A stretch of 64,000 nucleotides of DNA from the NCBI RefSeq assembly GCF_002742635.1, contig NZ_PEGF01000002.1, forward strand, positions 372,001-436,000, written 5' to 3'. Source of the stretch: Caulobacter sp. X. Its GTDB lineage: Bacteria; Pseudomonadota; Alphaproteobacteria; Caulobacterales; Caulobacteraceae. Below are positions 35,972-62,254 of this stretch, piece after piece. A program made the translations under genes and the position numbers. Under the pieces are notes generated by a model. It was given only the letters and a program-made list of their open reading frames with translations, did no database searches and was not told where the DNA came from. Numbering within the stretch: position 1 is the stretch's first letter; every line of letters begins with the position of its first letter.

Positions 35972-37258
35972 ATGAGCGGACATTCGACCTATCAACCCAA
36001 GACCGGTTTCGAGCGCTGGCTCGACGCCCGTCTGCCGATCGTGCGTCTGGGCTACGACTCGTTCGTCGACTACCCCACGCCGCGTAATCTGAACTACTGG
36101 TGGACCTTCGGCGGCATCCTGTCGCTGTGCCTGGCCTCGCAGCTGATCACCGGCATCATCCTGGTGATGCACTACACGCCGAGCGCCGCCGGCGCCTTCG
36201 CGTCGGTCGAGCACATCATGCGCGACGTGAACTACGGCTGGCTGATCCGCTACATGCACGCCAACGGCGCGTCGATGTTCTTCATCGCCGTCTACATCCA
36301 CATGCTGCGCGGCCTGTACTACGGCTCCTACAAGGCGCCCCGCGAAGTGCTGTGGCTGCTGGGCTGCGTGATCTATCTGCTGATGATGGCGACCGCCTTC
36401 ATGGGCTACGTCCTGCCTTGGGGCCAGATGTCGTTCCACGGCGCCGTCGTGATCACCAACCTGTTCGGCGCCCTGCCGCTGGTCGGCGAAAGCATCACCA
36501 CCTGGCTGTGGGGCGGCTTCGCGGTCGACAACCCGACCCTGAACCGCTTCTTCTCGCTGCACTACCTGCTGCCCTTCATGATCGCGGGCGTCGTGATCCT
36601 GCACGTCTGGGCGCTGCACGTGGTGGGCCAGAACAACCCGACCGGCGTCGAGCCGAAGTCGAAGGCCGACACCGTGCCCTTCACGCCGTACGCGACGGTG
36701 AAGGACGGCTTCGCGATGAGCGTCTTCCTGATCCTCTTCGCCTTCTTCGTCTTCTACATGCCGAACGCCCTGGGCCACGCCGACAACTACATCGAGGCCA
36801 ACCCGCTGGTGACGCCGTCGCACATCGTTCCGGAATGGTACTTCCTGCCGTTCTACGCGATCCTGCGCGCCGTGCCGGACAAGCTGATGGGCGTGCTGGC
36901 CATGTTCGGCGCCATCGCCTGCCTGTTCGCCCTGCCGTGGCTGGACACCTCGAAGGTGCGCTCGATGCGCTACCGCCCGACCGCGAAGATCTACTTCGTG
37001 TTCTTCCTGGTGGCCTCCTGCGTCCTGGGCGTCTGCGGCGCTAAGCTGCCCGACGATCCGGTGATCCCGCACCTGACCACCTTCCAGCTGATGGGTTCCG
37101 ACCTGAACAGCTTCGTGTGGCTCAGCCGCGTCGCCGCCCTCTACTACTTCGCTTTCTTCCTGGTCGTGCTGCCGGTCCTGGGTCTGGTCGAGAAGACCCT
37201 GCCCGTGCCGGACTCGATCGCCTCGCCGGCCCTGTCGGCCGACGCCAAGAAGGGTTGA
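35972..37258 (+). CDS. petB: Ubiquinol-cytochrome c reductase, cytochrome b subunit
   Basis: 428 residues with the usual eight helices. The haem-ligating His pairs lie in helices B and D, and [16 protein letters not shown] contains the ubiquinol-site PEWY motif. [25 protein letters not shown] is the conserved quinone-site region. It starts five bases after petA and ends five bases before petC. It carries the two b haems and the Qo and Qi sites of complex III. Confidence 0.97.
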
Positions 37259-50403: not shown

Positions 50404-51551
50404 GTCGCGTCCTCGAAGAGGGGGGGCGAAAGGTCGGGCGAACACAGGCACGCCACCTTGAACAGGCTCCCCATCTGCGCCTCGCCGAGCAGCCGATCAA
50501 GCTGTCTTCCAATCTGCTCGGTCTTCTCGGGCTGGCGGGCGGCGAGGGCCTCGGCGCGGTCGAGGATGCCCAAGGCCAGCAGGAACTGGGCTTGGGTCAG
50601 GATCGGTCCAGCCTTGGCCCCGGCCTCGCGCGCGGCGGCGACCACCGACGGGAAGTCGGCCCACACGGTCAGGTCGGCCAGGCCCGCCGTCTTCAGCGGA
50701 TCGACCTTCTGGTGGTTCTGGATCGCCTGCAGCGTGTCGCCGGCCTCGGGCTGGGCGCGGCCATAGTCGATCAGCAGCGCCGCGCCGCCGTCGATGCCGA
50801 GGCGATGGGCGATATCGGAGGCGATGGCGGCCTGGGCGGGGGAGGTCTCAACGACCGCGCCCGCCGCCAAATCCTCCCCCCAGAGGGGGAGGTGGTCCGA
50901 AGGACCGGAGGGGGGAGAGGCAGGGGCGGCGGGACTTCCCCCTCCGTCCGCTGCGCGGACACCTCCCCCTCGGGGGGGAGGATTTAGGGGGCGCAGTCCG
51001 AACGCCAGCTCCCCGTCCGCGCCCAGCCCGATCACCCGCTCGGCCCAGCCGTCTTGCACGCGGACGAACTGCCGAGCCGGCAGGCAGTCGAGGAGCTCGT
51101 TGGCGACAAGGATCATCGGCGCGCCGCCGGGAACCTCGTCCAGGCGGGAAGCCCAACGCGGGCGATCGCCCAGCCGCTCGGCTTGGCGAGCCTTAAGCGG
51201 TTCGGAGACCTCGACCAGCCAGACATCGGCGGCTTCCAGGAAGTCCGGCGCCACGCGCGCGGCGCGCAGCAAGTCGCTCATCAGCGTCCCGTCGCCGGGA
51301 CCCATTTCGACCAGGCGGAACGGCGCGGGGCGGCCCAGGCGCGTCCAGGTCTCGACCATCCAGAGGCCGATCAGCTCGCCGAACATCTGGCTGACCAGCG
51401 GCGCGGTGATGAAGTCGCCGCCGGCGCCCAGATCGGGCCGCGTGGCGTAGTAGCCGTCGCGCGGATCGTGCAGGCAGCGGGTGAAGAACTCGGGCACGGC
51501 GATCGGCCCGTCATGGGCGATCTGGGCCTTGAGGCGCTCCAGCAGGCTCAT
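50400..51551 (-). CDS. MidA/NDUFAF7-like SAM-dependent methyltransferase with in-frame repeat insertion
   Basis: 383 residues. N-terminal signatures: FTRCLHDPRDGYYATRPDLGAGGDFITAPLVSQMFGELIGLW and VEMGPGDGTLMSDLLRAARVA (AdoMet-binding), as in NDUFAF7/MidA arginine methyltransferases that help complex I assembly. Residues about 190-228 (39 residues, Pro/Gly-rich: starting NPPPRGGGV and ending LWGEDL) coincide exactly with a 117-base palindromic element (50869-50985) found elsewhere in the window, so the frame is kept across the insertion. The gene lies between lgt and pgeF, overlapping pgeF by four bases. Confidence 0.88.
   Translation of the reverse strand: MSLLERLKAQIAHDGPIAVPEFFTRCLHDPRDGYYATRPDLGAGGDFITAPLVSQMFGELIGLWMVETWTRLGRPAPFRLVEMGPGDGTLMSDLLRAARVAPDFLEAADVWLVEVSEPLKARQAERLGDRPRWASRLDEVPGGAPMILVANELLDCLPARQFVRVQDGWAERVIGLGADGELAFGLRPLNPPPRGGGVRAADGGGSPAAPASPPSGPSDHLPLWGEDLAAGAVVETSPAQAAIASDIAHRLGIDGGAALLIDYGRAQPEAGDTLQAIQNHQKVDPLKTAGLADLTVWADFPSVVAAAREAGAKAGPILTQAQFLLALGILDRAEALAARQPEKTEQIGRQLDRLLGEAQMGSLFKVACLCSPDLSPPLFEDAT
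50869..50985. repeat. GC-rich palindromic element, copy B (subtype 2), inside the methyltransferase gene
   Basis: About 117 bases bounded by ATCCTCCCCC and GGGGGAGGAT. Its two halves are inverted copies, and the right half shares TCCGTCCGCTGCGCGGACAC with copy E at 56479-56601. It sits within a coding sequence, its length is a multiple of three and it contains no stop in that frame, so it encodes a 39-residue insert. Confidence 0.88.
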
Positions 51552-58881: not shown

Positions 58882-59000
58882 CCGTGTCATCCCGGCCGGA
58901 GCGCATCGCGCGGAGAGCCGGGACCCAGGGGATGACGAAACGCCGTGCGCGCCGCCCCTGGGTCCCGGATAGCCTCTGCGAGGCTTCCGGGATGACACGG
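58882..59000. repeat. Palindromic element of a second family
   Basis: About 119 bases with long inverted arms: CCGTGTCATCCCGG at the left end matches CCGGGATGACACGG at the right end, and inner CGGGACCCAGGGG pairs with CCCCTGGGTCCCG. The two halves give a large dyad. It lies between the ilvE terminator and the aromatic leader of aroG. Different in sequence from the CCTCCCCC family. Confidence 0.85.
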
Positions 59001-59073
59001 GTTTTGGGCTTCTGTTGCGGCCCCCAGAAATCTGGGGGTGACTCACGGCCAACTTCGCCCTACGGTCTTCGCG

Positions 59074-59157
59074 ATGACCCTCGCCGCCAGCCACACGCTG
59101 TTTTGGTATTTTAGCTATCCGACGCCTCTGGCGCCGGGAGGGTTTCGTTCGGCCTGA
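59074..59157 (+). CDS. Leader peptide of DAHP synthase, 27 residues, aromatic run
   Basis: Short frame MTLAASHTL followed by FWYFSY (codons at 59101-59118), then PTPLAPGGFRSA and a TGA. A run of five aromatic codons within six, covering Phe, Trp and Tyr, just upstream of the gene for the first step of aromatic amino-acid synthesis is highly suggestive of a regulatory leader. No clear Shine-Dalgarno precedes the ATG; the message may be leaderless, or translation may begin at the in-frame GTG at 59038. Its stalling state would set the pairing of the downstream RNA. Confidence 0.85.
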   Translation: MTLAASHTLFWYFSYPTPLAPGGFRSA

Positions 59158-59218
59158 GATCAGGGCCACTTAGAGAACACCTTCACCAGCCGCCAGGGGA
59201 TCCCCGGGCGGCTTTTTT
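59085..59218 (+). promoter_or_regulatory. Attenuator with four pairing segments upstream of aroG
   Basis: Segment 1 (59085-59090, CGCCAG) is complementary to segment 2 (CTGGCG in 59125-59133). Segment 2 (CCTCTGGCG) can instead pair with segment 3 (59191-59199, CGCCAGGGG; nine pairs including one wobble). Segment 3 is the 5' arm of the terminator hairpin, whose 3' arm is at 59202-59212. A ribosome stalled on the aromatic codons (59101-59118) would cover segment 1 and favour 2:3 pairing, hence read-through; free passage allows 1:2 and then the terminator. This mechanism is inferred from complementarity and the classical trp/phe model. Confidence 0.75.
59189..59218 (+). terminator. Intrinsic terminator in the aroG leader
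   Basis: GCCGCC-A-GGGG-AT-CCCC-G-GGCGGC followed by six T, 40 bases before the aroG ATG. The strong stem and T-run, upstream of a coding gene rather than after one, mark a conditional terminator. Confidence 0.88.
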
Positions 59219-59257: not shown

Positions 59258-60349
59258 ATGCCGTCTTCCGCCGCCCATATCGTCTCGCTGCCGGTCCCGA
59301 CCGACGACCTGCGGATCGAGAAACTCCAGACCCTCAGCCCGCCCGCCCAAGTGATTGGCGAGGCGCCCGCCACCTCGTCGGTGGCCGAGGTCGTCGGCGC
59401 CGGCCGCCGCGCGGTCCACGAGATCCTGCACGGGCGTGACGATCGTCTGGTGGTGGTGATCGGGCCCTGCTCGATCCACGACCCCAAGGCCGCCCTGGAA
59501 TACGCCCATCGCCTGGCCGCCGAGCGCGAGCGCCACGCCGGCGAGCTGGAGGTGATCATGCGGGTCTATTTCGAAAAGCCCCGCACCACGGTGGGCTGGA
59601 AGGGCCTGATCAACGACCCGGACCTGGACGGCGGCTTCCGGATCAACGAGGGCCTGCGCCTGGCGCGGCGGGTGCTGCTGGACGTCAGCGCCCAGGGGCT
59701 GCCGGCGGCTTGCGAGTTCCTGGACGTGACCACGCCCCAGTACATCGCCGACCTGGTGGCCTGGGGCGCGATCGGCGCGCGTACGACCGAAAGCCAGATC
59801 CACCGCGAGATGGCCTCGGGCCTCTCTTGCCCCGTTGGCTTCAAGAACGGCACCAACGGCGACGTGAAGGTCGCGGTCGACGCGGTGACCGCCGCCAGCC
59901 AGCCGCACCATTTCCTGGCCGTGACCAAGGAAGGCCGCGCCGCCATCGCCACGACCACCGGCAACGGCGACTGCCATGTCGTGCTGCGCGGCGGCAAGAC
60001 GCCCAACTATGACGCCGCCAGTGTCGCGGCCGCGGCCCAGGTCCTGGAGAAGGCGGGTCTGGCGCCGCGCATCATGGTCGACGTCAGCCACGCCAACAGC
60101 GGCAAGAACCACGAGAACCAGCCGGCGGTGGTCGCCGACGTCTGCGCTCAGCTCGCCACCGGCGCCTCGCCGATCATGGGCGTGATGATCGAAAGCAACC
60201 TCGTCGCCGGCCGCCAGGACATCGTCCCCGGCCAGCCCCTGACCTACGGCCAGTCGGTCACCGACGCCTGCGTGGACTGGGAGACCTCGGTGCGGATGCT
60301 GGATGATCTGGCGGCGGCGGTGAGGGCCGGCCGCGCCAGGCGGGGGTAG
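59258..60349 (+). CDS. aroG: 3-deoxy-7-phosphoheptulonate synthase, class I (DAHP synthase)
   Basis: 363 residues. Class I signatures: VVVIGPCSIHDPKAALEYAHRLA, VIMRVYFEKPRTTVGWKGLINDPDLDGGFRINEGLRLAR, SCPVGFKNGTNGDVKVAVDA and MVDVSHANSGKNHENQPAVVADV (metal His, Glu and Asp). It joins phosphoenolpyruvate and erythrose-4-phosphate in the first step to Phe, Tyr and Trp. Upstream CCGGAG is the ribosome site. Its leader encodes an aromatic-rich peptide followed by a terminator, so expression is probably controlled by aminoacyl-tRNA supply for Phe, Trp and Tyr, in addition to feedback inhibition of the enzyme. Confidence 0.95.
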   Translation: MPSSAAHIVSLPVPTDDLRIEKLQTLSPPAQVIGEAPATSSVAEVVGAGRRAVHEILHGRDDRLVVVIGPCSIHDPKAALEYAHRLAAERERHAGELEVIMRVYFEKPRTTVGWKGLINDPDLDGGFRINEGLRLARRVLLDVSAQGLPAACEFLDVTTPQYIADLVAWGAIGARTTESQIHREMASGLSCPVGFKNGTNGDVKVAVDAVTAASQPHHFLAVTKEGRAAIATTTGNGDCHVVLRGGKTPNYDAASVAAAAQVLEKAGLAPRIMVDVSHANSGKNHENQPAVVADVCAQLATGASPIMGVMIESNLVAGRQDIVPGQPLTYGQSVTDACVDWETSVRMLDDLAAAVRAGRARRG

Positions 60350-60359
60350 GGCGAACGCC

Positions 60360-62150
60360 CTACTTCCCCGCTTGCGCCGCCATCACCGCCGCGACCTCCG
60401 CCCGCGCCATGGCGATGTCGCGCAGGAAGGTCTCGGAGCGGTGTTGGGCGGCGTAGATCACCTCGCCCGACTGCAGCCCCGCCTCGGTGGCGCTCAGCGT
60501 GTGGCTGCCGCAGATCCAGCGGCTGTCGGCGTAGTCGCGGCCGCGGGCGTAGAGGGCGTCGGCGCGCGAGGGGACGACCTCGGCCAGGATCATCGCGACA
60601 TGGCCGCCGAAGGCCGAGTGGCCCGACGGATAGTCGGGATTGGCGGTCAGGTCGGGGCGCTTGGGCTCGCACACCGGGGCGGAGTCCTTGCCGATGTAGG
60701 GACGCTTGGTCCCCCAGAAGTGCTTGGCGACGCTGACCGGCGATCGATCGTCGCCGGCGCGCTCGAGCAGGGCCGACAGGATCGGGGCGTTCTGGGCGGT
60801 GAGCTTGACGCCCAGGGCCTTCTCGAAATGGCCGAAGGCCGGACCGCTGACGTCGGCCGTGGCCTCGGCCCAGCGCGCCGGGTCCTTGTCCTTGATCGCG
60901 CGGCTCTGGTCGAACACGGCGGCGTCGGCGATCGCGCGGGGCGAGCCGGGCTGGGGCGGCGGGGCCAGGATCTTGGTCAGGTCCGGGCGCGCCTCGGGCT
61001 GGAGGTAGCCGCGCTCGGGCGCGCCGGGCAGGGCCTCGATCGGCAGGTTGTCGCAGACCTTGGGCTGACGGACCGGATTGCAGATCGCCACGTCGCCGCC
61101 GGTCAGGCGCACGGTGTAGCCGCCCGGAAAGCGCGGGTCGGGCCAGATGTAGTCGGTGGAGACATACTGGGCGCCGCTGGTGAAGGCGGCGGTGCGGCGG
61201 CTGACGTCGTTGCGGCGGGCCTCCCAAGTGTCGGCATCGGCGCGGGTGCGGACGATGAAGCCGGCCTTCACCGCGGCGGTGATGCGGTCCTTCTCGGCGA
61301 TCGGATCGTTCAGCGTCAGATAGGCCGCGGCCGGCGAGGCCTCGTCGGTGTTGACGAACATCGCGCGGCCTTCCAGCGAGGCGCGCTTGCCGCGATAGAT
61401 GGCGACCTTCTTCGGGCCTTCGTCGAGGGCGAAGAAGACCTTGCCGCGCGCCTGGCCGATCTTGGGCCAGCCGCCCGCCAGCACCGCCTCGCGCAGGGTC
61501 TTGGCCTTGCCCTGGACCTGGTCGGGCGTGATCAGGCGATCGTCGCCGAACACCGAGCGGATCTCGGCGTCGAAGGCGTCGAACAGGGCTTCGGTGAAGT
61601 CCAGCGGCTTCACCCCGCCCGGCACGGTGGCCTCGCCCTCCTTGGCGTTGATCATGATCAGGATCGGCGCGTGGTCCCGATGCGTGTCGGACCAGGCGCG
61701 GATCTCCTTCAGGCACGAGATGAAGGTCACGCACGAGACGCGGAAGTCGATGTCGGTCATGTGCATGGTCTTGAAGCCCGGCTTGGCCAGGGCCGCGGCC
61801 ATCTCCGGCGGCAGGGCGGTTCCCTGGCCGAAGACGGTGAGCGGCTTGGCGTAGCGGCCGCCCTCGGGGTCGGCGACGACGTCCAGTTCAATCTGACGGG
61901 CGCCGGCGTCCAGCTGCTCGGCGAGGCGCCGGTGGCCGTAGTCGACGCCCAGCGCCGCCTGGCCGCGCGCGGCGACCATGGCCGCCATCTCGTCGGCCGG
62001 AATGAGCTGCTTGTAGGAGTTGTGCGTGCCCACGGCCATCAGGTCGTTCATCGGCAAGGCGTCCATCCGCTGGCGGATGCAAGGCGCGCTCTCGTCCGAG
62101 GCGGGGCAGGGGGCGGCGGCGACCGCCAGGGCGGCGAGCAGGTTCAGCAT
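60360..62150 (-). CDS. Fusion of Ca-dependent PI-PLC-like phosphodiesterase and class A acid phosphatase (PAP2)
   Basis: 596 residues from ATG 62150, with a signal peptide (MLNLLAALAVAAAPCPA). The N-terminal half (about 30-370) has MAVGTHNSYKQL (first catalytic His), AGARQIELDVVAD and MHMTDIDFRVSC, the PI-PLC-C1/Ca-dependent PLC pattern. The C-terminal part (about 400-590) is a class A acid phosphatase: KHFWGTKRP (KX6RP), YPSGHSAFG (PSGH) and DSRWICGSHTLSA, where the usual Asp after the His (HX3D) is Ala. The fusion could release inositol phosphate and then remove its phosphate, in the periplasm. Divergent from the TonB receptor at 62353. Confidence 0.83.
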   Translation of the reverse strand: MLNLLAALAVAAAPCPASDESAPCIRQRMDALPMNDLMAVGTHNSYKQLIPADEMAAMVAARGQAALGVDYGHRRLAEQLDAGARQIELDVVADPEGGRYAKPLTVFGQGTALPPEMAAALAKPGFKTMHMTDIDFRVSCVTFISCLKEIRAWSDTHRDHAPILIMINAKEGEATVPGGVKPLDFTEALFDAFDAEIRSVFGDDRLITPDQVQGKAKTLREAVLAGGWPKIGQARGKVFFALDEGPKKVAIYRGKRASLEGRAMFVNTDEASPAAAYLTLNDPIAEKDRITAAVKAGFIVRTRADADTWEARRNDVSRRTAAFTSGAQYVSTDYIWPDPRFPGGYTVRLTGGDVAICNPVRQPKVCDNLPIEALPGAPERGYLQPEARPDLTKILAPPPQPGSPRAIADAAVFDQSRAIKDKDPARWAEATADVSGPAFGHFEKALGVKLTAQNAPILSALLERAGDDRSPVSVAKHFWGTKRPYIGKDSAPVCEPKRPDLTANPDYPSGHSAFGGHVAMILAEVVPSRADALYARGRDYADSRWICGSHTLSATEAGLQSGEVIYAAQHRSETFLRDIAMARAEVAAVMAAQAGK

Positions 62151-62254
62151 GGGCGACTCCAGGACAGAGCGTCGCCATAGCGCTTGCACATGACGGTTTG
62201 ACGTCCCCACGCGATGGAGATCGCGGTCCCGTCATCAAGCTTTTAAAAAAACGA

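Follow-up and report, generated by a model that had tools for sequence, protein, structure and literature searches.

The window analysed here comprises 64,000 nt of the Caulobacter sp. X genome and carries, towards its end, a type I DAHP synthase gene preceded by a short open reading frame rich in aromatic codons and by an intrinsic terminator. The features are as follows.

59038 to 59066, + strand: promoter-like element, GTGACT (59038-59043) and TACGGT (59061-59066) with a 17-nt spacer; from sequence
59074 to 59157, + strand: leader ORF of 27 codons plus stop (ATG 59074, TGA 59155-59157), peptide MTLAASHTLFWYFSYPTPLAPGGFRSA; from sequence
59101 to 59118, + strand: control codons TTT TGG TAT TTT AGC TAT (Phe-Trp-Tyr-Phe-Ser-Tyr, FWYFSY); from column frequencies in 54 leaders
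59119 to 59137, + strand: local hairpin 1':2, 59119-59126 with 59130-59137; predicted at 0.85 when the A-site holds the stop codon
59125 to 59133, + strand: region 2, core strand of the antiterminator, CCTCTGGCG, within the leader ORF; pairs with 59191-59199
59136 to 59150, + strand: region 2b, extension of the antiterminator strand; predicted pairing with 59173-59187
59173 to 59187, + strand: region 3b, partner of 2b; from folding and clade permutation
59188 to 59218, + strand: intrinsic terminator 3:4, AGCCGCC (59188-59194) and GGCGGCT (59207-59213), with six T (59213-59218); from sequence, alignment and folding
59191 to 59199, + strand: region 3, CGCCAGGGG, common to the antiterminator (with 2) and the terminator (with 4); from alignment
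59258 to 60349, + strand: type I DAHP synthase, AroG-like, 363 aa; PF00793, E 4e-97

The DAHP synthase gene begins 39 nt after the terminator. The original prediction named DAHP synthase as the target and this stands, the product being a type I enzyme (PF00793), but its place in the pathway needs correction: a class II DAHP synthase (PF01474) is present in all 37 genomes examined, so the type I enzyme is a second isozyme and not the sole entry to the pathway. No such leader was found in the regions upstream of the class II gene in five genomes. Two loci from the same genus whose genomes lack aroG (L181 and L182) have a short frame, MRTFFALRFGLG, just upstream of the class II gene with no terminator, and this frame is probably there by chance. 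Beyond aroG, on the - strand, 60360-62210 encodes a predicted chain that joins PF16670 (Ca2+-dependent phosphoinositide phospholipase C) and PF01569 (PAP2).

The promoter-like element ends 7 nt before the leader ATG, and the spacing recurs: in 35 of 40 dereplicated alphaproteobacterial leaders, 6-8 nt separate the end of the best -10-like hexamer from the ATG. Such spacing predicts a transcript that starts at or beside the ATG and is thus leaderless. Because the element is conserved at this distance, a transcript start downstream of 59118 appears unlikely. A palindrome, CCCCCAGAAATCTGGGGG (59021-59038), adjoins the promoter-like element; it has a single site in the genome, and is shared only by the nearest relatives, most others lacking it. 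Further upstream, between a class IV aminotransferase gene and the leader, a long inverted repeat (GTGTCATCCCGG...CCGGGATGACACG, 58882-58999) looks like an intergenic palindromic repeat.

Direct reading of the DNA confirms the 27-codon frame and its run of codons for Phe-Trp-Tyr-Phe-Ser-Tyr. Stop-free windows of six codons with at least five Phe, Trp or Tyr occur at three places (four overlapping windows) in the six frames of the 64 kb, where a first-order Markov sequence gives an expected mean of 0.025; besides the leader, dense aromatic runs lie at 37142 and 50704, in other frames. The latter reads TFWWFWI (50704-50724) in a forward frame. Since such runs are found in other frames too, the argument for the leader rests on conservation and not on rarity. 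Among 54 diverse leaders, the aromatic fraction per aligned codon column is 51, 87, 92, 96 and 94% in columns 1-5, falls to 9% in column 6 (usually Ser), and is 83% in the last column, with almost no aromatic codons beyond. Phe and Tyr control codons are general among the leaders. Trp codons are usual in those of alphaproteobacteria, scattered elsewhere and missing from many of the other leaders, so that control by all three amino acids describes the codons of the Caulobacter leader and not the whole family.

The strong terminator hairpin with six T that had been noted upstream of the DAHP synthase gene is likewise evident in the sequence. Its predicted stability is about -20 kcal/mol, and 3:4 is paired in 90% of the cells of our alignment. 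The hairpin at 59188 is absent from the output of a generic terminator scan, the likely reason being that its perfect arms lie 12 nt apart, more than the loop limit of the scan allows. The terminator shares a strand, region 3, with the antiterminator, as in attenuators of the trp/phe type. CCTCTGGCG (59125-59133) is fully complementary to CGCCAGGGG (59191-59199), with nine pairs of which one is G-U, and this pairing, which formed part of the original prediction, is conserved with compensatory changes. The antiterminator consists of CCUCUGGCG:CGCCAGGGG plus a clade-specific second helix. The 2:3 pairing is present in 87% of cells, five of its eight pairs have changed on both sides, and it outperforms all 500 shuffles in four of five measures as well as every slid version. 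Compensatory examples include Rhizobium (region 2 AGCGG, region 3 CCGCU) and the individual leaders L099 (CUGACGG, CCGUCAG), L058 (CCGGCGG, CCGCCGG) and L089 (CCACCGGCGG, CCGUCGGUGG).

For the duplex of region 2 and its downstream extension with region 3 and its upstream extension, the true clade pairing is the best of 40,320 permutations. For 2b:3b alone, in a set enlarged by 43 leaders left out of model building, 202 of 200,000 clade permutations were equally good; as clade permutation leaves some effects of base composition, these probabilities are supporting and not exact. RNAalifold alone recovered only the terminator, as is expected where pairings are mutually exclusive. Alignment of the regions upstream of aroG in relatives thus reveals conservation both of the aromatic codons (83-96% in five columns) and, through covariation, of the antiterminator. 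This supports the attenuator as originally interpreted; non-conservation, which had been named as the finding that would speak against it, is not what we see.

The other proposed pairing, between CGCCAG (59085-59090) and CTGGCG (59128-59133), fared differently. The two segments are complementary as letters, but the pairing is neither conserved nor predicted to form: its probability never exceeds 0.12 in folding, and several Caulobacter leaders carry changes in the 5' strand, which most other genera do not have. Nor did the aligned leaders reveal any conserved distal 1:2 pairing. We predict that the moving ribosome and the local hairpin 1':2 together take the role given to this pairing. The consensus 1':2 hairpin is weakly supported across genera and slid versions covary more, and we therefore treat the protector as lineage-specific.

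For the transcript as far as region 3, we computed folding with 30 nt masked by a ribosome. The computed probability of 2:3 is 0.94 with the A-site at Phe 59101, Trp 59104, Tyr 59107 or Phe 59110, drops to 0.81 at Ser 59113 and 0.32 at Tyr 59116, and is about 0 from Pro 59119 through the stop codon. In this computation the control codons are thus placed such that a stalled ribosome leaves region 2 free, and the aromatic run ends approximately where a moving ribosome starts to cover the antiterminator strand. The fall past the aromatic codons is also seen across the 54 leaders; in the Devosia leader, the spacer of which is 3 nt shorter, it starts at the last aromatic codon. In equilibrium folding of the full-length RNA, several of the stalled states favour the terminator; antitermination therefore has to be kinetic, the antiterminator forming first as in the classical model. 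With no ribosome, the antiterminator is predicted at 0.89 in the Caulobacter leader and is also predicted in many other lineages, which suggests that the off state depends on efficient translation of the leader; in Rhizobium, where there is a strong local hairpin, the corresponding value is only 0.06-0.09. Absence of translation leads to termination at the E. coli trp leader, whereas folding alone predicts antitermination for an untranslated Caulobacter leader.

How widespread is this element? A search of 61 genomes identified a near-full-length enzyme in 20 genomes of the genus, Caulobacter sp. X included, and all 20 have a near-identical leader (FWYFSYPTPLA) and a terminator at similar distances; the gene is lacking in many genomes of the genus. 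In a wider comparison of 80 loci from a collection of species genomes, most related type I enzymes are preceded by a leader ORF with many aromatic codons, a region 2 resembling CUGGCGGAGG and a terminator of the form GCCGCCAG...CUGGCGGC-U(n). Relatives of the leader lie upstream of type I DAHP synthase in Rhizobiales, Burkholderiales and Xanthomonadales, and the overall spread takes in many alpha- and betaproteobacterial and some gammaproteobacterial genera, again before this gene. Among alphaproteobacteria the peptides include RFYSYR (Rhizobium) and FWYFSYP (Devosia), with leaders also in Kaistia and Methylosinus; elsewhere we find FFFYFYAFPKP (Alcaligenaceae), FYFWFSHSS (Oxalobacteraceae) and RYYFWF (Xanthomonadales).

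A covariance model built from the 54 leaders gives the Caulobacter leader 91 bits. In an even draw of 399 Pseudomonadota species it matches 60 at E <= 3e-6, which is an upper estimate since other attenuators and plain terminators are found among the weakest matches. Wherever the DNA downstream of a match above 43 bits was readable, it encodes a type I DAHP synthase; one further match is at a contig end. Plain terminators reach about 42 bits, and as matches below about 43 bits include them, we do not take such matches to indicate control of other genes. Five leaders among the weaker matches (L169-L171, L173 and L175) have Phe or Trp runs with no AroG downstream; of these, L169, L170 and L173, found by the model in three gammaproteobacterial genomes, are possibly attenuators of another aromatic gene.

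A rapidly built AroG tree, many branches of which are weak, places the leader in a single part, where it is present in 60 of 64 scored rows (0 of 14 outside), and the labels change 5 times as against 16.6 in shuffles. This fits a single origin of the leader and spread together with the gene, and is not proof of transfer between classes. AroG and leader of one record titled Mycobacterium sp. KBS0706 (L045) fall among alphaproteobacteria, and the record is probably mislabelled.

The trpL, pheL and pheST leaders of E. coli have control codons, alternative 2:3 and 3:4 pairings, and a terminator before the structural gene. The Caulobacter leader shares control codons, the choice between 2:3 and 3:4, and the terminator with them (for the E. 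coli leaders see also PMC11802643). It differs in that each of these has a single control amino acid and another target gene, and in that the antiterminator strand lies inside the leader ORF with no conserved distal 1:2 found. The principle of attenuation through leader codons at DAHP synthase genes is already known from aroR-aroF of Corynebacterium glutamicum and predicted for Acholeplasma aroF. A putative aroF leader was described in C. glutamicum (PMC4046766), and a passage of PMC11802643 citing Neshat et al. 2014 reports that a Phe-Tyr-Phe leader peptide, aroR, upstream of aroF acts under Phe limitation. Both systems combine a leader peptide of aromatic codons with attenuation (predicted in Caulobacter) before a DAHP synthase gene; going by the published description, the C. 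glutamicum one is set apart by its Phe-Tyr-Phe codons without Trp, its response to Phe limitation and its actinobacterial host. In Acholeplasma, a predicted uORF motif, uORFC-13-1, lies upstream of aroF (PMC8632094); it too combines a predicted uORF with a terminator upstream of DAHP synthase, but has a U-run coding for at least one Phe and, as described in that paper, a different consensus, and is confined to Acholeplasma and environmental sequences (PMC8632094). A passage of the same paper, citing Camakaris 1980, mentions that attenuation of E. coli aroF was once hypothesised. The Sinorhizobium meliloti trpL attenuator (rnTrpL), the transcript of which starts at the ATG and of which both RNA and peptide have functions in trans (PMC7298713), resembles the Caulobacter leader in being alphaproteobacterial and leaderless (predicted in Caulobacter), and differs in its Trp codons, its target trpE(G) and the trans functions shown for it.

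Our searches of the open-access literature turned up no proteobacterial attenuator of this kind at a DAHP synthase gene. The C. crescentus coding map (PMC4117421) refers to leader peptides and to an ilv attenuator, but its main text names no leader for DAHP synthase or aroG, and DAHP synthase and aroG go unmentioned in the main texts of the S. meliloti small-proteome (PMC10117765) and Bradyrhizobium start-site (PMC4842269) papers. No Rfam family matches the leader region at gathering score, and 20 related loci gave only tRNAs. Sub-threshold whole-length matches over the leader region to P15, ncS54 and RcsR1 raise the idea that these orphan sRNAs may be the same leader; all three are absent in six beta- and gammaproteobacterial loci tested, and P15 matched neither the Caulobacter sp. 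X genome nor 14 control genomes.

We consider it highly probable (about 0.9) that the leader is a ribosome-mediated transcription attenuator of the type I DAHP synthase gene, with the response of the cell inferred from sequence and folding. Transcription would begin at or beside the ATG, as promoter spacing suggests, yielding a leaderless leader mRNA, and a ribosome would follow RNA polymerase through Phe-Trp-Tyr-Phe-Ser-Tyr. A shortage of charged Phe-, Trp- or Tyr-tRNA would hold the ribosome at the control codons, where the computed geometry places region 2 immediately in front of it. This would allow 2 and 2b to pair with 3 and 3b while region 4 is still to be synthesised, no terminator would form and aroG would be transcribed. 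A weaker effect is predicted at the last Tyr codon, where the ribosome footprint would already reach into region 2. If supply is adequate, the ribosome is expected to run over the antiterminator strand, inside the leader ORF; once it reaches the stop codon, the computation has it mask 2b while the local hairpin holds region 2, so that 3:4 would pair and transcription would stop.

Could the terminator instead be an ordinary one between transcription units, with the aromatic ORF a chance frame? The dense aromatic runs in other frames of the window and the scores reached by plain terminators speak for this, but the 2:3 pairing, the codons and where these lie with respect to region 2 have been conserved as a set, with covariation, and the element is kept before the same gene across three classes; we give this explanation hardly any credence. 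The terminated leader RNA or its peptide might also act in trans, control of aroG being secondary, as the likeness of the predicted leaderless design to S. meliloti trpL, an RNA from the ATG that acts in trans as RNA and peptide (PMC7298713), would suggest. This is very improbable, given that checking of the strong matches, where feasible, always showed aroG beside the element, and that outside the aromatic codons the sequence varies between lineages in step with the cis pairing.

A less easily dismissed alternative is a genuine attenuator that senses chiefly a single amino acid, such as Phe, with only a minor part for the other aromatic codons. The passage of PMC11802643 on C. glutamicum has its Phe-Tyr-Phe aroR leader responding to availability of Phe and not of Tyr, and both control Phe codons of the Caulobacter leader are TTT, a codon used for only 35 of 561 Phe residues in the long ORFs of the window. 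However, masks at Trp 59104 and Tyr 59107 free the antiterminator as much as those at Phe 59101 and 59110, and the Tyr codons - in alphaproteobacteria also the Trp codons - are conserved, which makes a single-amino-acid response somewhat unlikely. More speculatively still, the leaders may form a widespread family in which the translating ribosome, and not a strong 1:2 hairpin, is the main off-switch, so that an untranslated leader antiterminates in many lineages, and whose leaderless terminated RNA or peptide might also act in trans like that of S. meliloti; we regard this combination as unlikely.

Among proteobacteria, repression of DAHP synthase genes by TyrR and TrpR is described in gammaproteobacteria (PMC5343134). 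If attenuation by the leader is correct, its effect would be an extra DAHP synthase isozyme induced on aromatic shortage, and entry to the shikimate pathway could follow the supply of charged tRNA in many soil- and plant-associated bacteria. The leader would also offer a natural mixed aromatic sensor, and a contrast with the trp leader in whether blocked leader translation raises or lowers read-through.
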